DNA from: a virus
Virus record (IMG/VR): IMGVR_UViG_3300036715_001483
Coordinates: 1 to 21,175 of that record
Reading direction: 5' to 3' (one strand)
Length of the DNA stretch: 21,175 bases
Part shown: positions 681-14,770 of the stretch, piece by piece
How the letters are laid out: the number at the start of each line of letters is the position of its first letter
Numbering within the stretch: position 1 is the stretch's first letter
The notes under the pieces: model-generated
What the model was told of the DNA's origin: nothing
The model's input: only the letters and a program-made list of their open reading frames with translations
The model's database searches: none
Translations under genes and position numbers: made by a program

Positions 681-1283
681 ATGTTCGTTACTATTGAGAC
701 CCTTACACGTCCATCACTGGATGTTAAGTTCCCGACGGTTCATCTCGAAGGTGACCTCGGTGCTGCACTTACTGAGCAAGCAAACGCCCGTAAGACCAGT
801 GCAGCTTGGGTTGGTGCGTCGTTTGAGAAGAGTGAAGACGGCCTGACCGCTGTGATCACCAATATCTGGACTGACAAGGCTGGTAAAGATGAATTCGTTC
901 GTAATCATCCTGAGATTGTTAAGCGTGCAGCTGATCTGCGTGATGAATACATGAAGGCTAACGGTATTACCAGCACTATTAGTGCTCAAGTTGAAAACAT
1001 GACTCTTGCAAATGCAAATGCACGTTTGATTAACGCTCGTGAACGTAGCAAGAGGGTAACTGCTGCACGTCTTGCTCGTGCTGCCAAGGCTGCAAAGGCT
1101 GCTGCTGATGCAAAGGCTGCCTCGACTGCTACGACTGCTACGACTGCTACGACTGCTACGACTGCTGCCAATACGACTGCTGCCAATACGACTGCTGCCA
1201 ATACGACTGCTGTCAATACGACTGCTGCCAATACGACTGCTACGACTGCTACGACTGCTACGACTGCTACGACTGCTGCATAA
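681..1283 (+). CDS. Hypothetical protein with Ala/Lys-rich segment and Thr/Ala/Asn tandem-repeat tail
   Basis: This 200-aa protein starts at an ATG preceded by a good AGGAG site (668-672). Residues 1-107 look like an ordinary folded domain of mixed composition, with predicted helices around the DEFVRNHPEIVKRAADLRDEY stretch. Residues about 108-147 are Ala/Lys/Arg-rich and likely a basic helix. Residues 148-199 are a low-complexity tail built from TTA and ANTTA units encoded by nearly identical DNA repeats. I do not recognise the family. The tail could be a spacer or an exposed virion-surface arm; the preceding late-promoter-like box weakly favours a structural or late role. A strong terminator follows 18 nt after the stop. 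A long antisense ORF across the repeat exists only because the repeat lacks stops on both strands. Confidence 0.75.
   Translation: MFVTIETLTRPSLDVKFPTVHLEGDLGAALTEQANARKTSAAWVGASFEKSEDGLTAVITNIWTDKAGKDEFVRNHPEIVKRAADLRDEYMKANGITSTISAQVENMTLANANARLINARERSKRVTAARLARAAKAAKAAADAKAASTATTATTATTATTAANTTAANTTAANTTAVNTTAANTTATTATTATTATTAA
1122..1277 (+). repeat. In-frame tandem repeat array (9-mers flanking 15-mers)
   Basis: The order is one variant 9-mer (TCGACTGCT), four ACGACTGCT units, five 15-mers of the form GCCAATACGACTGCT, then four more ACGACTGCT units. The fourth 15-mer has one change (GTC for GCC at 1212-1214, Ala to Val). All units are multiples of three, so gain or loss of units changes tail length without breaking the frame. 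Near-identity at the nucleotide level, including third positions, indicates recent expansion or homogenisation. Confidence 0.95.
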
Positions 1284-4057: not shown

Positions 4058-5506
4058 TTACTCTTCCTCTACTTCAATGTTGCTTGGGTTTGTTGCTATC
4101 ACCTGTGTACCGTCGGCATTGTATACTAACACCGGCAATCCGATCATTTTTAACAGGTTGCGACCGATAAGGGCCTCATACTTCATACCTGCACGGTCAG
4201 TGATGGTAAATTCCACCTGGTTGTAACGCTTACCACGGAAGACTACATCAAGCTTGATCACAGGCCGTGCATTCTTACCATGGGCATTGCGAATCTTGAT
4301 CTGGCGATCGATTGGCACCTTGTAGGTAATTTCACCACGAGTAAAGCGAATCCAATTATTCAGCTCCTCAACCTTGTCAACATGCAGGCTAGAGTATGCG
4401 GCACCTGTGTCAACACGGGCTTCAATGTCACCGTTTGTTAAGCGCACGATAGTCAATTTTTCAACATCGGTCAACGGTGCATCTGGGGATGTAGGCCCTT
4501 GCCCGGTTTGCTCAGGTTCAGCAATTTCAATGTCTGGGTCACCAGGAACTGGGTTACCGGGTGCAACATTGCTATCAAGCGTTGCACAGAATTCAACAAC
4601 CATCTTTGCAAGGTCGCGCTCACCTTCCCAGTCTTTTTGAATTGCTTCAAGGCCCGGGGAACCGTTAACCTCTAGGACGATGATCTCGTCGCCGACCATG
4701 ATATAATCGATAGCACAGAAACGACAACCAAACAGGTCAACAATCTTACGTCCGATCGCAAGTTCTTCTTCAGACGGTTCATACTTTTGCGTAGTGGAAC
4801 CGAGATGCGAGTTGGTACGGAACTCATCCTTCTCTTTAGGTTGCATGCGGAGGTTTGCTGCAAGCATCTCTTCACCGATCATGATGATCCGAGCTGACTT
4901 GTCATGCTCGATGAACTCTTGCAGCATAATCTGTACATCCTGTGCAATGAATGCTTGTGCAACAGATATTAAGGATGAACGGCTATCTACCTTCATCACA
5001 CCGATGCCATGGGTACCACGCAAGGTCTTGACGATCATTGGGAACTTCAAGTTACCTTCAGCTTCAGCAAGCTTCAGTGCCGGTTCAAGCATATTAGCCG
5101 ATCCTACGGCCATGCTCCATGGTGTACGAATGCCGGCGTTGTTCAGCACAACTTGGGAACCGAGCTTGTCATTACACAGCGCCATGGATTCTGCTGAATT
5201 TAACATGCAACCGCCATGAAGCTCCAAACGACGCAGGACCCCTAACTTGTATTCTAAATCATGTTCGTTCAGGCGTGGAATGCACACATAAGGTGTCTCC
5301 AACTGGATGAGTTTAGGCTCCTCACCTTCCTCGTGGCAGGTCTGAAATACTACTTTTGAGGCTGCATCCTTTGTTGTCGATTGCTCAATGAGAGCTGTTT
5401 TTGTAATGTCTACGATTTGTGCTTCATGATTCAGCTCTTCGGCGTGCTTAACAAAGAGTGCAGCGATCTCACTTTTAGGTTCAGCGGTAATGATAAACAA
5501 CTTCAT
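4058..5506 (-). CDS. Fusion: RimK-like ATP-grasp ligase + retropepsin-like protease (DUF785/RimB type)
   Basis: This 482-aa protein has two recognisable parts. Residues 1-305 are a RimK-type ATP-grasp ligase: N-terminal Rossmann-like strand, PMIVKTLRGTHGIGV (155-170, K160 and the Gly-rich loop for ATP), QEFIEHD (196-202), and the metal-binding triad region CAIDYIM...VLEVNGSPGLE (D267, E279, N281). A Pro-rich linker (about 315-345) leads to residues 350-475, which match the retropepsin-like family once called Zn_protease or DUF785: ARVDTGAAYSSLH with the D366-T-G-A motif, and TDRAGMKYEALIGRNLL. RimK adds glutamates to the C-terminus of ribosomal protein S6 in bacteria, and the partner protease RimB trims such tails. 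Here a writer and a possible eraser appear in one chain. It starts by ATGA overlap with the upstream gene and has GGAG nearby. The substrate is unknown. Confidence 0.85.
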   Translation of the reverse strand: MKLFIITAEPKSEIAALFVKHAEELNHEAQIVDITKTALIEQSTTKDAASKVVFQTCHEEGEEPKLIQLETPYVCIPRLNEHDLEYKLGVLRRLELHGGCMLNSAESMALCNDKLGSQVVLNNAGIRTPWSMAVGSANMLEPALKLAEAEGNLKFPMIVKTLRGTHGIGVMKVDSRSSLISVAQAFIAQDVQIMLQEFIEHDKSARIIMIGEEMLAANLRMQPKEKDEFRTNSHLGSTTQKYEPSEEELAIGRKIVDLFGCRFCAIDYIMVGDEIIVLEVNGSPGLEAIQKDWEGERDLAKMVVEFCATLDSNVAPGNPVPGDPDIEIAEPEQTGQGPTSPDAPLTDVEKLTIVRLTNGDIEARVDTGAAYSSLHVDKVEELNNWIRFTRGEITYKVPIDRQIKIRNAHGKNARPVIKLDVVFRGKRYNQVEFTITDRAGMKYEALIGRNLLKMIGLPVLVYNADGTQVIATNPSNIEVEEE

Positions 5507-6306
5507 TTAATGGCTCCACGGTCATATAGTTCTTGGTACTTATCACGCTTGATTGCAATGGCTTTACCACCTACCCAAACCTCACGACCGATTGGCAGCT
5601 GAGTAGAATCAGGTGTCATCAGCTCATAGCCGTTATCATCTGGATCAAACAGCTCATTTAAGTACATCATGGCATTGCCACGACGTTGTGCAAATTTAAT
5701 AAAGCGTTGCACATCAATACCTGCATCAGGCAGCTCCTTAGCCACGGCTACTTGCTTAATGCTGATCGGCTCAAGCGCGCTGAGCATGTTCTTAATGTCT
5801 TTGTAGTTTTGTGGATCTTTATATTCAACATCAAGCCCGACCGCATTTGCAACCTTGTACAGGCTCTCAAACCAAACGGCAATCCCTTCATTGTCAACCT
5901 TAGGGAGCTGTAATGCTATTGCGGCCTTCTTAAAGCTGCGAGTCAGTGCTGTATCACTAGTTACTGTAATACGTACACCGTCCAATGGGATGATGACGTA
6001 CATGCTGCCTTCACCACTTGCTTCGGCAACCTCACGGCTAGTATATGCAACAATGGACCGTGCACGGTTAGGGTAACGTGACCAGCTTGGAAGCTCAGCG
6101 ATCAATGATTCGATGTAAAATTTAGGACGCTTGGAGCCAATTGTTGGGTTCAACAGCAGAAAGTCTGAAGATGACCGAATAAGCTTAAAGATCGGAGTAC
6201 GTTTTGCCAGGGCATGTGAGTTGCGAGCTGAATGCTTGAGCAGGTCAAGAAATTTTAGCTCGCTGATCTTGCTCTCACGTTGTTCAGCTATTTCAAACAA
6301 CTTCAT
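5503..6306 (-). CDS. Hypothetical protein with capsid-targeting-like N-terminus, possibly ADP-ribosyltransferase-like
   Basis: The 267-aa protein begins MKLFEIAEQ. The first eight residues resemble the short T4 capsid-targeting peptide that ends in (I/L)-x-E and is cut by the prohead protease; I-A-E|Q would be the cut. The body contains ELPSWSRYPNRARSIVAYTS (about 70-90) followed by MYVIIPLDGVRITVTSD (about 102-118), an arrangement reminiscent of ADP-ribosyltransferase-like proteins found near late genes of other T4-type phages. I cannot confirm a catalytic Arg/Ser/Glu set, so this is only a suggestion. It overlaps its neighbours on both sides by ATGA, forming a tight operon with the 144-aa gene and the ATP-grasp/protease fusion, and could deliver an effector to the new host. 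Confidence 0.6.
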   Translation of the reverse strand: MKLFEIAEQRESKISELKFLDLLKHSARNSHALAKRTPIFKLIRSSSDFLLLNPTIGSKRPKFYIESLIAELPSWSRYPNRARSIVAYTSREVAEASGEGSMYVIIPLDGVRITVTSDTALTRSFKKAAIALQLPKVDNEGIAVWFESLYKVANAVGLDVEYKDPQNYKDIKNMLSALEPISIKQVAVAKELPDAGIDVQRFIKFAQRRGNAMMYLNELFDPDDNGYELMTPDSTQLPIGREVWVGGKAIAIKRDKYQELYDRGAIK

Positions 6307-6737
6307 CTCTTATAACCCTTTAGAGCATCAGCCAAGGAGTTACGCTTGATGCTAAGACCTGCTAACCGGCGCATATCAGCTAAGACTTTTTCTTCAAAGA
6401 CAGAAAGATCTACAACTTGATCTTGTTGTAGTTCGGGTTGGTCATCCGGGCCGGTCTTCGGTTGGGTCATTGATTGTGCACCGCTGTCATCAGTTGTTAC
6501 TGTGGCGCTGACATTTTCGAGCTCACTGCGTAGGCTAGCAATCTCTTGTTCGACCTGTTTAATGATAGCCTCACGGTTCTCATAGATTGTTACAGTTGAC
6601 GATAGTGCCCGCAGTTGAGAAACCAACGTGACCCAGAAGTTAATAGCGGTAATCATTTCGTCATTTGTACCGATGAACTTTGGGGTGATCAGTGGGTGCA
6701 TGCTTTCGATCAGTGTTTGGATGTTTTTTGTTTGCAT
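6303..6737 (-). CDS. Hypothetical protein with coiled-coil
   Basis: The 144-aa protein is not recognised. Residues about 1-50 are helical and amphipathic, about 52-76 (ENREAIIKQVEQEIASLRSE) form a probable coiled coil, 78-105 are a polar Thr/Asp/Gln/Pro-rich linker, and 108-144 are again helical, ending in basic LKGYKR. There is no signal peptide or membrane segment. The layout suits a small adaptor or structural component. It is the first gene of a three-gene operon with ATGA overlaps. GAGAG precedes the ATG, and a TAAATA box lies 53 nt further upstream. Confidence 0.6.
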   Translation of the reverse strand: MQTKNIQTLIESMHPLITPKFIGTNDEMITAINFWVTLVSQLRALSSTVTIYENREAIIKQVEQEIASLRSELENVSATVTTDDSGAQSMTQPKTGPDDQPELQQDQVVDLSVFEEKVLADMRRLAGLSIKRNSLADALKGYKR

Positions 6738-7616: not shown

Positions 7617-9575
7617 TTACCCCTTAGACTCATTTGCTGCATTCAGTAAGTCATTAACTTGTTCTGGGTTAAGCTCGATGCGAGATGCAGCACCTACTTG
7701 TTTCAGCACAGCTGAACGACCACGTGGTGATACAATGTACTTCTTGTCATTAGTATCGTGTACACTTATCGTTTCACGGTTTGTAAGAGCTTTGAGCAGG
7801 CGCTCAAGGTTCTCTTCAATAAATTCAGCATCACCAACTTTGACACCGTCATCGGTTGCTTCGATAGTCAGCTTATCAATCTCATCAGCTTCGGTAATTG
7901 TACCGTTAGCTTTAGCCTTTTCAGCAAGTTCATCAACACGACGGCCGATTACCTTGAGTGCAACACGGATAGCAAACTTTTCTTCACCTTTTGCTCGAGC
8001 TAGCTTTGATGCAAGATCACCATCACTCATTCTCTTCAGTTCAGGCATCAATGTTCTGACACGGTTGTAAACAGCATCAGTGAGCTCAGCAACAGTACCT
8101 ACCGCCTTTGCTGCATCAATGATCTCGGGATCACGAGTTGCTTCAGCAAGTGCTTCGCCCTTGTAGCCATTCTTCTTCAGCTCAGCCTTTACATGGTCAA
8201 GCGATGAGTTAGGCCATGTCTTAACCTTCTTAAATGGTTGAGAAGCTTCGGTCATTGTGTAGTTATAGTGACCATTTTGCCAAATGATGAAGCTGCCGTT
8301 ACCCTTTTTAACACGACAGATAAAGTTAGCACCTTCAGTAACGGTGTCTTTTGCCTTCAGCGATGCAAGAATGCCTTTCAGGCTTTCAACAACAGGTTCA
8401 CGATTTAGCTCCTGTTCTACAGCATCAAGACGAGTCTTGATAGCGGAAGGCAAAGATGTTACACCTTGTTTGATACTACGCAGCAGAGTCTTAGCCGCCA
8501 TGGTGTTCAGCACGGCTGCAGCAAGCTTCTTGCCTTGTGATTGGTCAGCCATGTTGAACATACGAGTAACTAACTCAACTGCATCATCACCGGTTATTGC
8601 CTCTGCAACCGGTTGGGACAGTGTATTCATGGTCTCAACGGCTTGTGCAAGGCTATTAAGTTTGGTACGCAAGGTAGTGCCGACCTTCGTGTTGAGGAAG
8701 GATAACGAGCGCTTCTTCAAGTTTTGGTACTTACTGTCATTGAAGAGAGTTTCAGCATCAACACCTTTGCGTGACTTATCAAGGGCTTTTAGTGCGCTTT
8801 CAAATGCGGACCAGAATACATCAGCATTGCTTTCTGTCAGCAAGGATTCTTCGATTTGATCAGGTTCTTTAGCATTTTGGTCAATGGTGCGCTTCACAAA
8901 TATACGCAATGCTTGCTTCATCGACGAATTGTGCTGCAGCTGCATTGCAAGCTCACGAATATTACGGATGATTGTTGCACGATATGGGCTACGATCAAGT
9001 GCAACTTCAGGGATGCCAAGCTCAAGGATTGCTTGCAGGATCAGCTGTTGGTTAGGTGAGGTTAAGCGCGATACAATCCCACCTGGGATACCTTCGGCTA
9101 TTACATTGTTGGTCATAAAACGTTCTCCATAGCTCATGTTCTCTACACGTGGCTTAAGCTTTTGCTCGAGCTCTTTATTGGCTTGTGCATTATCATACAC
9201 ATCCGGGTTGAGCACTTCGCTACCGTCATCGGTCAGCTCATCATCCGGATTATCATCTTCATCTTTGTCAGGCCATTCAACGTCAACAATATCAACCTCT
9301 TTTGATGCAAGGTTGATTGCCTCTTCGATGTCATCGACCTTGCCCAATGCTTGAGACATGATCTTTTCAAACTTTTCGGCATCCTTTTCGGCAACATATA
9401 CTTTTACGATCTTACCGTCATCGGTCTCAAGACCAAATGACACGGTATCGACCTCATCGAGTGATGCTGCACGGTTGAGGCGGTCCATTATATCCGCTTC
9501 AAGGTTGGCGTCCTCGTTGAGCTGGAAGCCGAATTCAGGTGCGAGCTCTGTCACGGTTTTGAACAGCTCTTTCAT
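7617..9575 (-). CDS. Large hypothetical protein with many candidate prohead-protease sites
   Basis: The 652-aa protein is mostly helical and charged and shows no enzyme motif I recognise. An acidic segment (WPDKDEDDNPDDELTDDG, 101-118) lies after a small N-terminal domain. A compact segment at about 418-471 (FICRVKKGNGSFIIWQNGHYNY to HVKAELKKNGYK) may be a separate alpha/beta domain. The chain has several tripeptides of the h-x-E type followed by a small residue, as cut by T4 gp21-like proteases: IAE|G at 159-161, LTE|S at 246-248, LAE|A at 476-478, ITE|A at 560-562, with weaker VAE|A at 323-325, VTE|G at 412-414 and MTE|A at 441-443; the N-terminus itself reads MKELFKTVTE. A processed internal head protein is a reasonable guess. 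It starts as TAATG with the upstream stop and has AAGGAG. Confidence 0.7.
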   Translation of the reverse strand: MKELFKTVTELAPEFGFQLNEDANLEADIMDRLNRAASLDEVDTVSFGLETDDGKIVKVYVAEKDAEKFEKIMSQALGKVDDIEEAINLASKEVDIVDVEWPDKDEDDNPDDELTDDGSEVLNPDVYDNAQANKELEQKLKPRVENMSYGERFMTNNVIAEGIPGGIVSRLTSPNQQLILQAILELGIPEVALDRSPYRATIIRNIRELAMQLQHNSSMKQALRIFVKRTIDQNAKEPDQIEESLLTESNADVFWSAFESALKALDKSRKGVDAETLFNDSKYQNLKKRSLSFLNTKVGTTLRTKLNSLAQAVETMNTLSQPVAEAITGDDAVELVTRMFNMADQSQGKKLAAAVLNTMAAKTLLRSIKQGVTSLPSAIKTRLDAVEQELNREPVVESLKGILASLKAKDTVTEGANFICRVKKGNGSFIIWQNGHYNYTMTEASQPFKKVKTWPNSSLDHVKAELKKNGYKGEALAEATRDPEIIDAAKAVGTVAELTDAVYNRVRTLMPELKRMSDGDLASKLARAKGEEKFAIRVALKVIGRRVDELAEKAKANGTITEADEIDKLTIEATDDGVKVGDAEFIEENLERLLKALTNRETISVHDTNDKKYIVSPRGRSAVLKQVGAASRIELNPEQVNDLLNAANESKG

Positions 9576-10495
9576 TACGCTTTCTCCTTAGATGATTTGA
9601 AATGGGCCGGAGCCTTAAATTTGATAGCCTTAAAGCGACGAATACGTTTTTTGATTCGCTTATTTTGCTTCTCTGCATCCTTTTTGCTGCCTACCTGATG
9701 GTTAGACAGTTTAATGAACTTCATAGTGTTTGACAATGCAGCTTCTTGTTCAGAAGGGCCGTTGTCAATGATAGCATTTGAGGTTGAGCCGATGCTTGCT
9801 GCACTGGTGCCTGCAATAGCAGCACTGTTACCTGCAATAGCAGCACCTTCACCATCTTCGCGCAACCGGCTAAAGCTTACAATCTTCATAGCTGCAGCCG
9901 CAATGTCATTGACCATTGTTGAACCGGCCAGCTCACGCATACGGCTGAGCAATGATGATTTGGGGTCAGATTGCATCAGATATAAGAATGAATCACCTAC
10001 AGCACGACGACGAGCACCGGAGCTGAGCGAGTCCCACTTGAACAGGCTCTTCAATATTCGATCAAACAGCGAGCTGTTAAGCTCAAAGCGATGACGCAAC
10101 AGCACCATGCTGCCACAAACCTCTTGCCAGTTGATTTGATCAGGAGGTGTGAGCAGCACCTTCATTGTCTTTTCAATGCGTGCTTGTAGAATGCGTCCTG
10201 CGTCAACATTAAGCATATCAGCATGGCCGTGTTGCAGGTTCTTCTTAACAAGTGGGTCATTAGGGAAGAACAGCGCACGACCCCAAAAATTGACATCGCT
10301 CATGTTAGGGCCAAATTTGGTAAGCTTTGCGTGAGTTGGGTCATTGACCAGCAGCAAGCCTTTGAGGTCTTGTAAGCGCAACATAACCAGCGCCGCTAGG
10401 TAGTTTGCGAAGAACGCATTTTTTACACCATATGAGTCCATGCCTTGCAAGCGATGGACCAGAACTGACTGGTTTAATTCAAATAAGATGTTCAT
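9575..10495 (-). CDS. Hypothetical protein with AIAG-repeat linker and basic tail
   Basis: The 306-aa protein is not recognised. Residues 1-209 are a helical, folded region. Residues 213-242 are a low-complexity Gly/Ala/Ser linker with AAIAGNS-AAIAGTS-AASIGST repeats, matched by a 16-nt direct repeat in DNA (9810-9825 and 9831-9846). Residues 271-306 are very basic (KKDAEKQNKRIKKRIRRFK) and could bind nucleic acid or act as a packing tail. It overlaps the ligase-like gene by ATGA and the 652-aa gene by 1 nt, so the three are translated from one message. Position in a probable late operon suggests a virion or head-internal component; this is inference. Confidence 0.65.
   Translation of the reverse strand: MNILFELNQSVLVHRLQGMDSYGVKNAFFANYLAALVMLRLQDLKGLLLVNDPTHAKLTKFGPNMSDVNFWGRALFFPNDPLVKKNLQHGHADMLNVDAGRILQARIEKTMKVLLTPPDQINWQEVCGSMVLLRHRFELNSSLFDRILKSLFKWDSLSSGARRRAVGDSFLYLMQSDPKSSLLSRMRELAGSTMVNDIAAAAMKIVSFSRLREDGEGAAIAGNSAAIAGTSAASIGSTSNAIIDNGPSEQEAALSNTMKFIKLSNHQVGSKKDAEKQNKRIKKRIRRFKAIKFKAPAHFKSSKEKA
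9810..9846 (-). repeat. 16-nt direct repeat encoding AIAG linker
   Basis: CCTGCAATAGCAGCAC (given on the + strand) occurs at 9810-9825 and again at 9831-9846, 21 nt apart. On the coding strand it gives the repeated AAIAG units of the 306-aa protein's linker. Confidence 0.85.
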
Positions 10496-11982
10496 TCAGT
10501 AACCTCTGCATGCATCTCATCAATGGCCGAGCTAAAGAACACATTTAATAGCTCCTCCATTGTGGAGGCCTCTCGTACGGAGGTAAGCAGCTTGTTGACG
10601 GTCTTATGAGCTTCAGCAAAAGTCATTAATGTTCTACGTTTGATCTCAGGTGTATATTTAACCTTCTTGCCGTCGGCAAGCTTGAGGCTCATTTTGTCTG
10701 CATTCTTCTTAAAGTCCTCAAGTTCCTCATCAAGATCCACTAAAGCGTTGGTCAAGATAGCACGCATCTTACGCTTGATGGCTTCAAACTTCAGGCTATG
10801 AAGTGATTCTGCAATCGACTGAAGGGTCTCCTTCTTGGAGCTGCCTTTGAATTTTTCAAGCACCTTCTTAGCTTGGGATGGAACCTCGGTACCTGGGATA
10901 CCGAACATCCGAACACAACGGATCTTTGCATCCCCAACAATGCCGCCCCGTGACTCAATGTCGGCTTCATCATTGGCTGTTGAGATACGACCAGTTAAAC
11001 GGTTACGAACCTCATAGTTGAATTTGTTGACAGCGGTAAACTCTTCTTTGTCAACAACTTTGAATTGCTCTTTTGTCTTCGGGTCTGTTAAGATAATGCC
11101 TTCAATACCCGAGTATCCATTTTGTGCATCCGGATTCTGGCCGCGTAAGGACGGCTGAAGACTATTGACCACCTTAAGTATTTTCTTCTTGATCGGCATC
11201 ATGTACTTATCATGCACGATCTGAGTTAAGCGGTCCTTCTCATCCTTCAGTTTTGGACTGCGGTGCTTTAGTACTTCGAAGTTTGTCAGGTCGAAACCTT
11301 GATTATATGCAGCCTTGTTGATCTTTTTCAAGAAAGCTTCAAGCTCCTTGACATCATCCATCACATCAGCATGTGCAAGCTTCTCCGGTTGCACCGGATC
11401 TGACTTACTAAAGCCCCAATCGGTGATTTTTGGTGCACGTATAATGTTTGAACCATCGGTAGTATCACTAATCTTAGTTTGAACTGTAATCCGCTGATTC
11501 TTAAGCCTGTCATACAGCTTTGCTGGCAGGTTATCGTCAAGCTCCTTGGATGGATCATCACCAGGGATGGCTTCAAGGAATGCAATGTAGCTGAGGTTGT
11601 TTTTACCGTAGATGACTGTATTAGGTTGTGCACCAAACAGGATCTCACAGTTAACAGCTGTACCGGCTTGCACGATCTTTTTGATTGTGTCTTGCACCTT
11701 TTCAAGCACTGCATGTGCAGTTTTGAAGCCGTCATAGGCTGAATGTGCTGGGTAGTCGGTTACCTTGTAGAATCGCTTACCACCCTTTTGCTCTCGTGAG
11801 GTGTATAGCTTGCCCTCACGGTCGATACCCATAATTAGGTTTGCACCGTCTAGCTTTTGAACAGCCTTTAGCTGGTCAAGGCCTTTGATGAGCCGTAGGA
11901 AGGTCTCTACTGGAAGGTCTTCGATATGGGTGATCCCATATCCGGCTTCATTAAGCTGGAGGAATGATTTGAATGTTCGCAT
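10492..11982 (-). CDS. DNA/RNA ligase-fold nucleotidyltransferase with capsid-targeting-like N-terminus
   Basis: The 496-aa protein has the covalent nucleotidyltransferase motifs in order: motif I K43-L-D-G46, the conserved Arg region TSREQKGGKRFY (61-72), motif III VNCEILFG (E113), motif IV EGIILTD (E294-G295), and motif V FKVVDK (K308, K312). Lys43 is the predicted AMP acceptor. A helical domain of about 180 residues with no known OB-fold motif follows. ATG 11982 is preferred over the upstream TTG (11997) because it gives MRTFKSFLQLNEA, very like the T4 internal-protein peptide MKTYQEFIAEA, with L-N-E|A as the likely cut. The ribosome site is weak (GAGA). It heads an operon with the 306-aa, 652-aa and exonuclease genes. 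Whether it joins RNA, DNA or modifies another substrate is unknown. Confidence 0.75.
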   Translation of the reverse strand: MRTFKSFLQLNEAGYGITHIEDLPVETFLRLIKGLDQLKAVQKLDGANLIMGIDREGKLYTSREQKGGKRFYKVTDYPAHSAYDGFKTAHAVLEKVQDTIKKIVQAGTAVNCEILFGAQPNTVIYGKNNLSYIAFLEAIPGDDPSKELDDNLPAKLYDRLKNQRITVQTKISDTTDGSNIIRAPKITDWGFSKSDPVQPEKLAHADVMDDVKELEAFLKKINKAAYNQGFDLTNFEVLKHRSPKLKDEKDRLTQIVHDKYMMPIKKKILKVVNSLQPSLRGQNPDAQNGYSGIEGIILTDPKTKEQFKVVDKEEFTAVNKFNYEVRNRLTGRISTANDEADIESRGGIVGDAKIRCVRMFGIPGTEVPSQAKKVLEKFKGSSKKETLQSIAESLHSLKFEAIKRKMRAILTNALVDLDEELEDFKKNADKMSLKLADGKKVKYTPEIKRRTLMTFAEAHKTVNKLLTSVREASTMEELLNVFFSSAIDEMHAEVTE

Positions 11983-12351: not shown

Positions 12352-13725
12352 TCAAACCTGGAAGATGTCATTGAGGCTAGTCATTGACGGAGTCTTCGCT
12401 GGGCCTGATGGCTGAGCTGCGGAACTGTCAACACCTTCTTTATGCTGCTCTGGCTTACGGAAGCCAGAGATACGGCTTGCCAAAGTAGGTGCTGAGTCAG
12501 AGTCCTCTTCAAGGTTTGTAATGCGAAGGTTGTAGGGATTGAACTTGACGGTGAAGTATGAGCCAACACCAGATGATGAGCGAGTCTTCAGCATCTTAAA
12601 CATCATCTCACCGCGAGCCTTCATCTGAGGGGTTTGAATGATAGCTACGAGGTTGTCAGTAGTATTGATCTTGGAGATACCACCAGCGATGTGTGCTTGG
12701 TTCAAGTCTTCCAATGATTCGATCTGCTGAGCACCACGGTTCAGCTGAGAAGCAGTGATCATCATTAGGTTGAACTCGTTTGCAATGGCACGCAGCTCTT
12801 CGGTTACGAATTTATCCTTGATGAACATGTTTTCGGCCGAGACTTTTTCATTAGAGGCCATGATGTCAAGGTAGTCCACTACAATGAAGTCAGGGGTGCG
12901 TTTGTATTTAGTCTCATACTCTTTGATGAAGGAACGGATATGATTTGCATTGGTTGCAGACTCAGGCATACGCTTGATCACAAACTGCCCAGGTTTATGT
13001 GCCGTTTTCCGAACCTCGTGTGAAACTTTGGTGATGTTCTTCAGAATCTCGCCTTGAGCAATGCCGGTCACCATAGAGTCGAAACGCTTTGACACCATCT
13101 CTTCGGACAGCTCAAGGGTAATGTAAATACCGTAGTAGCCTTGGTCAACCAAGTTGCGAGCTATGTTGGACATTGTGATGGACTTACCGACACCAGACGG
13201 TGCGGCAAAGATGATCATTTCCTTGCGGTTGATACCGCCACCCAAGGCCTCATCAAGCTTCTTGATCTTGGTTGGAACGGAGGCTTGTGCTTGGGCCAGT
13301 AAGTTCAAGCGAGCTTCAGGATCAGCAAAGTAGTCGGTACCGATGTCGCGTTGAAAGCCTACGGCAACGGCATCACGAATGAGCTTAACGATCTCATTTC
13401 GACGATCCTCTTGGATCAGGGACACGGCTGAGAAAATTGCGGCTTCTGCTGCTTTATACTGACAATAGCTTTCAAGCTCATTCTCAGCATATAACAGCTC
13501 TTGCTTGCTCAAATTTTTCTGCTCAACCTTGACGCCTGTCTCAACAAAGACTTGCTCGGCCGTTGGCAGTGCACGATACTTGGCATGGTGGCTTTTGATG
13601 AACTCAACGGCTTTCTTTAGCTCAAGGTCAAAAAATGACGGTTGTAGCACCGGGTTAGCCTTAAGGTAAAGATCATTGCTGCTCATCAAGTACGTGAGCA
13701 TCAGTTTTTGTTTGTCTTGATTCAT
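12352..13725 (-). CDS. 41: Replicative DNA helicase, DnaB/T4 gp41 family
   Basis: The 457-aa protein matches the T4 gp41 size (475 aa). An N-terminal helical domain (1-150) leads to a RecA-type ATPase: Walker A APSGVGKS (175-182), the TLELSEEM strand (203-210), Walker B FIVVDYLDIM (280-289, D284), the sensor TASQLNR (324-330, Q327) and the Arg/Lys-rich KMLKTRSSSGVG (378-388). The hexamer would unwind the fork 5'-3' on the lagging strand and recruit the primase encoded just upstream. The polar tail ends SLNDIFQV, a possible protein-binding peptide. It starts 13 nt after the primase stop, with only a weak ribosome site, so coupling to primase translation is likely. Confidence 0.93.
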   Translation of the reverse strand: MNQDKQKLMLTYLMSSNDLYLKANPVLQPSFFDLELKKAVEFIKSHHAKYRALPTAEQVFVETGVKVEQKNLSKQELLYAENELESYCQYKAAEAAIFSAVSLIQEDRRNEIVKLIRDAVAVGFQRDIGTDYFADPEARLNLLAQAQASVPTKIKKLDEALGGGINRKEMIIFAAPSGVGKSITMSNIARNLVDQGYYGIYITLELSEEMVSKRFDSMVTGIAQGEILKNITKVSHEVRKTAHKPGQFVIKRMPESATNANHIRSFIKEYETKYKRTPDFIVVDYLDIMASNEKVSAENMFIKDKFVTEELRAIANEFNLMMITASQLNRGAQQIESLEDLNQAHIAGGISKINTTDNLVAIIQTPQMKARGEMMFKMLKTRSSSGVGSYFTVKFNPYNLRITNLEEDSDSAPTLASRISGFRKPEQHKEGVDSSAAQPSGPAKTPSMTSLNDIFQV

Positions 13726-13738
13726 TTAACTTGGCATT

Positions 13739-14770
13739 TCATTTTGTTTTATGTTGTTTCTTCTCACATTTCATTTCGAGAAGAAGTTTACCGGCAAATC
13801 CGGTAACCGCGGTGTTGGTGATGTGGTTCAAAAGCCACAGCCTTCCAAACCGTTTTCGTGCTTGGTTTGAGTCATCGATGTTGTCAGGCATAACGGTTAC
13901 AAACCATCCTTCAGCTAGGACCTTAAGCCCTAGCTTTAAGCCGTTGTCGTTCTTGTCAATGACAAAGATTAGCTTTCGATATTTAGCAGCCTTGCGCAGC
14001 TCACCTAGTTGCCACTCGCTTAAAGTGCTCCCTGTCATTGAGATTGCCCTAGGGCCAATGCTGATGGCATCAATAGGACCTTCAGTCACAAACAGCGGCT
14101 CTTGGGTTCGCTCATAAATCTCATCGTAGTTAAAGATGATCTTATCCTTCTCCACGAATGGGTTTATGTACCTAGGCTGCAAAGACTTGTCCATGGCTCG
14201 TGCTTGCCAGTAGATTAGACGGTCTTTGTGCATAAATGGAATGATGATTCGACATTCGAGCCGTTTGTCATCGCTGACAAAAAACGGCCAGTCATCAGGT
14301 TCCAACCCACGCTCAATGCGTAAGTACTCACGGGCTACCTCACACCAGGGAGATGCATTAGAGTTAATGTCAATCAGGTTCCCTGGTGGGGGTTCAATCT
14401 CTTTGGGAGGAGTCCAAACCGGCTTGTTTGGTTGATTGAGTACTTTCCCACCATGTTTGGCAAAGAATGCACGAGCCGCAATGTGTTCAACCTCATCTAA
14501 CGGGATACCGAAGGAAGTTAGCAGCTCTTTGAAGCGACGCGGAACCCGATCATGTTCATTCGGGTCATAGATGATAGAGGTACCACAGTTGAAGCAAGAG
14601 TAGTGGATAAACCCGGTTCCTTCAAACTTAAAACCGCCGCGCTCCTTGTAGTCATTGCATACCGCACAGACAGTAGGCTCATAACCTTTAGCGGAGCGTC
14701 TCCCTAAGGAAACATAGCGGCGGATTAGGTTCTCAAACTCTTGTGCGGGATCAATGTTGGTAACGTTCAT
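13739..14770 (-). CDS. 61: DNA primase, T4 gp61-like
   Basis: The 343-aa protein is almost the length of T4 gp61 (342 aa). It has an N-terminal zinc ribbon with C35-x2-C38 and C59-x2-C62, a linker rich in Pro (114-130), a catalytic region with EC-RIIIPF (172-179), and a TOPRIM fold with VTEGPIDAIS (228-237, E230) and FVIDKNDNG (269-277, D272 and D275). It makes the RNA primers for lagging-strand synthesis and works with the helicase encoded next. The ATG at 14770 lies inside the 3' end of the transglycosylase gene (20-nt overlap) with a poor ribosome site, so translation is probably coupled. Confidence 0.93.
   Translation of the reverse strand: MNVTNIDPAQEFENLIRRYVSLGRRSAKGYEPTVCAVCNDYKERGGFKFEGTGFIHYSCFNCGTSIIYDPNEHDRVPRRFKELLTSFGIPLDEVEHIAARAFFAKHGGKVLNQPNKPVWTPPKEIEPPPGNLIDINSNASPWCEVAREYLRIERGLEPDDWPFFVSDDKRLECRIIIPFMHKDRLIYWQARAMDKSLQPRYINPFVEKDKIIFNYDEIYERTQEPLFVTEGPIDAISIGPRAISMTGSTLSEWQLGELRKAAKYRKLIFVIDKNDNGLKLGLKVLAEGWFVTVMPDNIDDSNQARKRFGRLWLLNHITNTAVTGFAGKLLLEMKCEKKQHKTK

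Follow-up and report, generated by a model that had tools for sequence, protein, structure and literature searches.

The window analysed here, a viral record of 21 kb (21,175 nucleotides) with a T4-type replication module, encodes a 496-aa nucleotidyltransferase of the RNA ligase superfamily that begins with a capsid-targeting-like propeptide. The favoured reading, which is considered probable, is that this is a tagged, ATP-dependent RNA-ligase-type enzyme that is packaged in the head of a jumbo myophage, injected, and mends broken RNA. The propeptide, MRTFKSFLQLNE, comprises residues 1-12 (11947..11982, minus strand), is disordered in the structural model and has a predicted cut at Glu12↓Ala13 (arrows mark the position of the cut). 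Sequence comparison strongly supports the N-terminal peptide as a capsid-targeting sequence processed by the prohead protease, and the tag very probably loads the ligase into the virus particle. Packaging of the ligase is strongly inferred, injection is proposed by analogy with T4, and a role in RNA repair is suggested by the fold, by a companion enzyme and by the published pairing of RNA ligases with Pol-beta-type proteins (PMC7824862).

A divergent enzyme of the RNA ligase superfamily

The first-pass annotation had placed the gene at 10492-11982; these coordinates hold, and the strand is minus (11982..10492). The protein begins MRTFKSFLQLNEAGYGITHIEDL... and had been described as carrying a full nucleotidyltransferase motif set. 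Motif I (K43-L-D-G46, 11845..11856, with K43 as the predicted adenylylated lysine), the invariant acidic residue E113 of the nucleotidyltransferase pocket (11644..11646), motif IV (E294-G-I-I297, 11092..11103) and motif V (F307-K-V-V-D-K312, 11047..11064), all on the minus strand, are found where that description put them. One member of the set is missing: motif V lacks its second basic residue, which is usual but not universal in the superfamily, and has Val at this position in 65/66 homologues. The deviant Rnl2 enzyme DpRNL likewise has Val (V177) there (PMC4599027).

A scan of viral contigs returned 80 ligase loci, and a non-redundant set of 69 homologues was compared. Throughout this set K43, D45, G46 and E113 are retained (69/69), as is R63 in 68/69, and E294, G295 and K308 are present in 66/66 homologues. 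The KxDG lysine, E113, the EG pair and K308 are kept in the alignment down to ~25% identity, and motif V reads K308-[IVL]-V-D-[KR] in nearly all homologues.

The AF2 model of the window ligase has a pLDDT of 88.7; residues 1-15 are disordered (pLDDT < 50), and the ordered chain begins soon after. In a structural comparison with the PDB by a second aligner, RNA ligases came first, matching residues 14-320 with Z about 9 over ~190 residues: TbREL1 at Z 9.5 (197 aligned, 3.6 A), NgrRnl at about 9.2 and T4 Rnl1/Rnl2 at 8.4-8.8. The same output held many helical-bundle matches to the C-terminal domain, which were disregarded. Foldseek, run with the whole model against the PDB, gave nothing below E 0.001, and searches of Pfam, PHROGs and PDB sequences with the window protein alone gave chance matches only, with no match to Pfam RNA_ligase (PF09414) at the curated cut-off. 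The same Pfam family matches 11/21 aligned members weakly, below the cut-off (best 1.1e-4). Several relatives also carry separate canonical RNA ligases above the Pfam cut-off, so the window-type ligase is an extra, divergent enzyme. The RNA-ligase-type predicted fold and the invariant catalytic residues support the original assignment of a ligase-fold nucleotidyltransferase, with an active site that is intact and conserved.

The C-terminal ~180 residues had been said not to be a known ligase accessory domain. Residues 314-491 (10510..11043, minus strand) form a predicted all-helical domain with a pLDDT of 96 when folded alone, and a DNA-ligase-type OB-fold after the nucleotidyltransferase domain is absent. 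Compared with the PDB, the domain alone recovered common helical arrangements only; the best Z of 9.9 is below the warned level of about 13, so neither a known nor a new fold is claimed. The earlier description agrees with the helical prediction and with the lack of a specific PDB match; a new domain is unproved.

These features bear on the target of the enzyme. Once packaged and injected, it could instead close nicks in the phage DNA that enters with it, or adenylylate a host protein or small molecule. Enzymes of the ligase fold are versatile, the motif V of this one departs from the norm, and the separate canonical RNA ligases in several of these phages make a distinct job possible. On the other hand, the structures closest to the model are those of RNA ligases, a helical domain and not an OB fold is predicted at the C-terminus, and the linked Pol-beta-type enzyme best suits RNA end repair. 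A target other than RNA is accordingly judged unlikely, and broken RNA is retained as the favoured substrate.

Neighbouring genes, fusions and a Pol-beta-type companion

The replication module of the window is made up of polymerase B, primase, DnaB-type helicase and PD-(D/E)XK exonuclease (the primase being assigned by position and by eye), and its helicase is closest to those of the jumbo phages Phosso, Atu_ph07, XaC1, PA5oct and RaK2. The replicative helicase (12352-13725) and primase (13739-14770), together 12352..14770 on the minus strand, are a conserved landmark upstream of the ligase locus; in PA5oct-like phages, Phosso and Atu_ph07 the ligase homologue lies directly downstream of these two genes.

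Several genes near the ligase carry sites of the same type as the ligase. The 306-aa partner protein (9575..10495, minus strand) forms a single ORF with the ligase in many relatives, and in six relatives its gene starts with L-x-E↓S or G; the window partner reads L-N-Q↓S, so that the predicted P1 Glu is replaced by Gln. Ligase and partner are one ORF in 26 homologues, with LxE↓(A/G/S/N) at the junction in 17/26. The 652-aa protein of the cluster (7617..9575, minus strand) has L-N-E↓D at residue 21, and the ligases of one clade carry a fused sequence that looks similar to it by eye. A 144-aa protein (6303..6737, minus strand) has L-I-E↓S at residue 11. The 267-aa protein (5503..6306, minus strand), ADP-ribosyltransferase-like by eye only, has the N-terminus MKLFEIAE↓Q and is related to tagged tandem paralogues of Atu_ph07, which begin M[KR]W[HQD]QL[TN]E.

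Other features of the region were observed. At 4058-5506 (-) of the window, a RimK-type ATP-grasp domain and a retropepsin-like Zn_protease domain (PF05618) occur in one protein, and the 200-aa protein at 681-1283 (+) has a long Thr/Ala/Asn low-complexity repeat at its C-terminal end. Between ligase and partner in one fused ORF (L125), residues about 505-640 are ADP-ribosyltransferase-like by eye (IYRGLSFSS...), and a Pfam search with this inserted domain gave no match.

The fusions to the partner and to the 652-aa-like sequence in relatives, with protease sites at the junctions, could also be read as marks of a head core or scaffold-associated protein, one that is targeted to the prohead, processed and works in assembly, with its nucleotidyltransferase activity incidental; T4 core proteins have the same kind of site. 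Such a role is improbable, as the catalytic residues are invariant across the family down to ~25% identity and as untagged free-standing members exist, so that the enzyme has a function that does not depend on the head. An enzyme that is carried in the head as cargo is preferred.

A Pol-beta-type protein (family A6) adjoins the ligase in Phosso, Atu_ph07 and two further loci (L015 and L017), and the PA5oct homologue is nearby. The family has the signature GS...GDID...QVD, in which G, S, D72, D74 and D141 are invariant, and gave no Pfam or PDB sequence match. It is present in 15/15 searched genomes with the ligase and 0/9 without it, counts that come from related and hence not independent phages; the ligase-free genomes are nine related phages (including RaK2, CBB and XaC1) in which a ligase search found none. 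A scan of viral contigs for further Pol-beta relatives gave two known ones only, and was outperformed by A6 profile searches of genomes.

Within the window's jumbo group, A6 is tagged in 12/12 genomes (G001, G002 and ten further genomes). Tagged proteins start, for example, MVSFKQFLTE↓GGHATA or MINFKTFLLME↓GGAATA, and untagged ones MGGNAF or similar, so cleavage of a tagged A6 would restore the untagged start. In 2/12 (L209 and L210) the tag precedes AKSSGK or ARKSSGK, not GG, and in another two genomes (G012 and G015) the ligase is untagged and the A6 nucleotidyltransferase tagged. Pairing of RNA ligases with Pol-beta nucleotidyltransferases of the RlaP type has been described in jumbo phages (PMC7824862). 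The presence of the A6 companion strengthens the case for a role in repairing RNA broken by anti-phage nucleases.

Conservation of the probable capsid-targeting tag and of the prohead protease

Residues 4 and 7 of T4 IPIII serve in targeting, and residues 8 and 10 in processing by gp21 (PMC9026906). The first-pass annotation had likened the ligase peptide to this T4 type and had read a prohead protease site in it. The site is present as L-N-E12↓A, and F4 and F7 match Y4 and F7 of IPIII; the spacing departs from the T4 pattern, with Glu at 12 where T4 has it at 10. A single LxE match near the N-terminus is weak evidence, and from the tag alone it could be due to chance: in the proteins of one relative, about 3.6% of internal windows of the same size (46/1,266) contain (L/I)xE(A/G/S).

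Among the 69 non-redundant homologues, (L/I)-x-E↓(G/S/A/D) abuts the conserved (G)I.H.EDL core in 52. The residue at P3 is Leu in 44 of these, Ile in 7 and Met in 1, and that at P1' is Gly in 38, Ser in 9, Ala in 3 and Asp in 2. The search pattern made Glu obligatory at P1 and left P2 and P1' free; Val and Phe were allowed at P3 yet never occur, and PA5oct, with MNIAE↓I, was scored as untagged. The peptide ahead of the site varies in sequence and length among tagged homologues, one of which (L178) reads MRSFKQYLSE↓GITHIEDL with exact T4 spacing.

The 17/69 untagged homologues mostly begin with Met on the core, e.g. MSIQHLEDL. Untagged ligases include those of Phosso, Atu_ph07, the PA5oct-like phages, L015 and L017, and the homologues in the annotated phage collection were all untagged. 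Gene starts in contigs were picked from sequence, and a wrong start hides tags more often than it creates them. On a tree of 66 the tag label changes at least 7 times, with 5 changes forced by supported branches, and the clade of the window is tagged in 11/11 members. The homologue search proposed earlier for the N-terminal peptide thus recovered a T4-rule site in the majority of the family, with modular gain and loss at the start codon.

An S77 prohead protease (PF03420) was found in 15/15 searched relatives above 250 kb, and the capsid protein homologues of three relatives have YLVE↓T or YLTE↓T near residue 40, with further LxE sites N-terminal. In an ORF-wide test, N-terminal sites were enriched 2.6x in G001 (p = 7e-6), 1.7x in G002 (p = 0.03) and 3.0x in T4, for which the known MKTYQEFIAE↓A internal proteins were recovered. 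A run of similar-sized genes at 286-303 kb of G001 starts MKFKQFLxE↓(A/S). Tandem genes with a common tag-like start are seen both in this run (MKFKQFLxE...) and at 10600-16489 of L005 (MRWHQLTE...), and the two runs are probable arrays of injected effectors. At 140515-141147 of G002, a cytidylyltransferase-like protein (VVFGGRFQPFHRGH) has the tag-like start MKLSQIFE↓A.

Chance was considered as the origin of the tag and rejected on the basis of its conservation in 52/69 homologues, the changes on the tree and the genome-wide N-terminal enrichment. The earlier claim of a tag for the capsid is also upheld by the S77 protease in relatives, the tagged neighbours and the tagged partner enzyme. 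A reading as an ordinary RNA ligase of the cytoplasm, in which the N-terminal leader varies and L-x-E is either coincidental or conserved as part of the fold, would suit the untagged homologues and the background of lone N-terminal LxE sites (not rare, at about 3.6% of control windows), but is very improbable where 52/69 homologues keep the T4-rule positions only, the tag sits at a disordered chain end, relatives encode the S77 protease, and unrelated neighbours and the nucleotidyltransferase bear the same tag.

The available mass spectrometry concerns relatives with untagged copies. In the PA5oct list, the untagged ligase homologue is unmarked and neighbouring proteins are marked as found, as is the untagged Pol-beta-like protein. 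The list includes ribonucleotide reductase and metabolic enzymes and is therefore not clean or decisive evidence on packaging; the unmarked status of the untagged ligase agrees with tag-dependent packaging. For Atu_ph07, whose ligase copy is untagged, the text of the article gives 29 detected proteins for CDS 31-76, a range that spans the ligase locus.

Proposed role and comparison with known systems

In the proposed sequence of events, residues 1-12 would act as a capsid-targeting propeptide that brings the ligase into the prohead core, where the S77 (T4 gp21-type) protease of the phage, as conservation of the site suggests, would cut after Glu12. The mature ligase, with Ala13 at its N-terminus, would stay beside the DNA inside the head and, as T4 IPI-III and Alt are the model for this step, would enter the cell on infection. 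There, ahead of all phage gene expression, it may seal broken RNA, the likeliest targets being tRNA or other RNA that the host's anti-phage ribonucleases have cut, and the tagged Pol-beta-type nucleotidyltransferase would probably put back lost nucleotides ahead of ligation. In a wider form, for which the case is evenly balanced, the jumbo phages of this group would share a virion-delivered kit of RNA ligase and RNA end-repair nucleotidyltransferase, with detachable tags and some polyproteins cut by the prohead protease, serving early anti-ribonuclease repair.

The head-packaged phage proteins known to work on entry are for the most part restriction inhibitors, ADP-ribosyltransferases and RNA polymerases. 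A literature search, mostly outside subscription journals, found no paper joining phage, virion, RNA ligase, packaged and capsid targeting. If the favoured reading is true, some phages import RNA repair (ligase and nucleotidyltransferase) rather than produce it after infection, which would explain how phages survive defences that cut tRNA or RNA at a time when phage genes are not yet on. The modularity of the tag, with tagged and untagged homologues sharing the same start point, offers a simple rule by which injected effectors could be found in jumbo phages.

With the Rnl2/REL and Rnl5 ligases (T4 Rnl2, TbREL1, NgrRnl) the window enzyme shares the fold predicted for its residues 14-320, together with motifs I, III-like and IV and the first motif V lysine; it differs in its 9-15% identity to them, its KxVD motif V, its own helical C-terminal domain and its propeptide. 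PA5oct EST35_0228, Phosso XYS97603 and Atu_ph07 gp066 have the same locus downstream of primase/helicase and the same catalytic residues, whereas they are untagged and annotated as hypothetical proteins only. By eye, DUF6267 (PF19782, of cyanophages and pelagiphages) is also similar, with KWDGAP, EG...K-L-V-D-R and a HLEHLED-type start; profile comparison of the ligase family with PF19782 gave a weak match (probability 22%, E 0.001, ~110 N-terminal columns), and PF19782 weakly matches 2/21 ligase members. Most of the cyanophage DUF6267 copies seen lack a tag, whereas some copies have a leader with LVE↓D or ITE↓D at its end. Such leaders stand before the KWDGAP nucleotidyltransferase-like domain in the DUF6267 proteins of pelagiphage HTVC008M and Methylophilales phage Melnitz, and a relative is present in jumbo phage XaC1; the loci noted are L082 1471-2700, L100 1183-2436 and L104 1774-2850. 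The companion A6 is like RlaP-type Pol-beta proteins in its GS...GDID...QVD signature and its association with an RNA ligase, and differs in having no Pfam or PDB sequence match.

The closest precedent for the tag is T4, in which IPI-III and Alt are internal proteins with capsid-targeting sequences (PMC9026906) and internal proteins have anti-GmrSD roles (PMC12373910). Both systems have a short N-terminal peptide with aromatics at 4 and 7 and an (L/I)xE↓ cut site, an S77 protease (here in the genomes of relatives), and unrelated cargoes with only the leader in common. They differ in the position of the Glu, which is at 12 and not 10 in the window protein, and in the cargo, which in T4 consists of restriction inhibitors and an ADP-ribosyltransferase and here is of RNA-ligase type and Pol-beta type.
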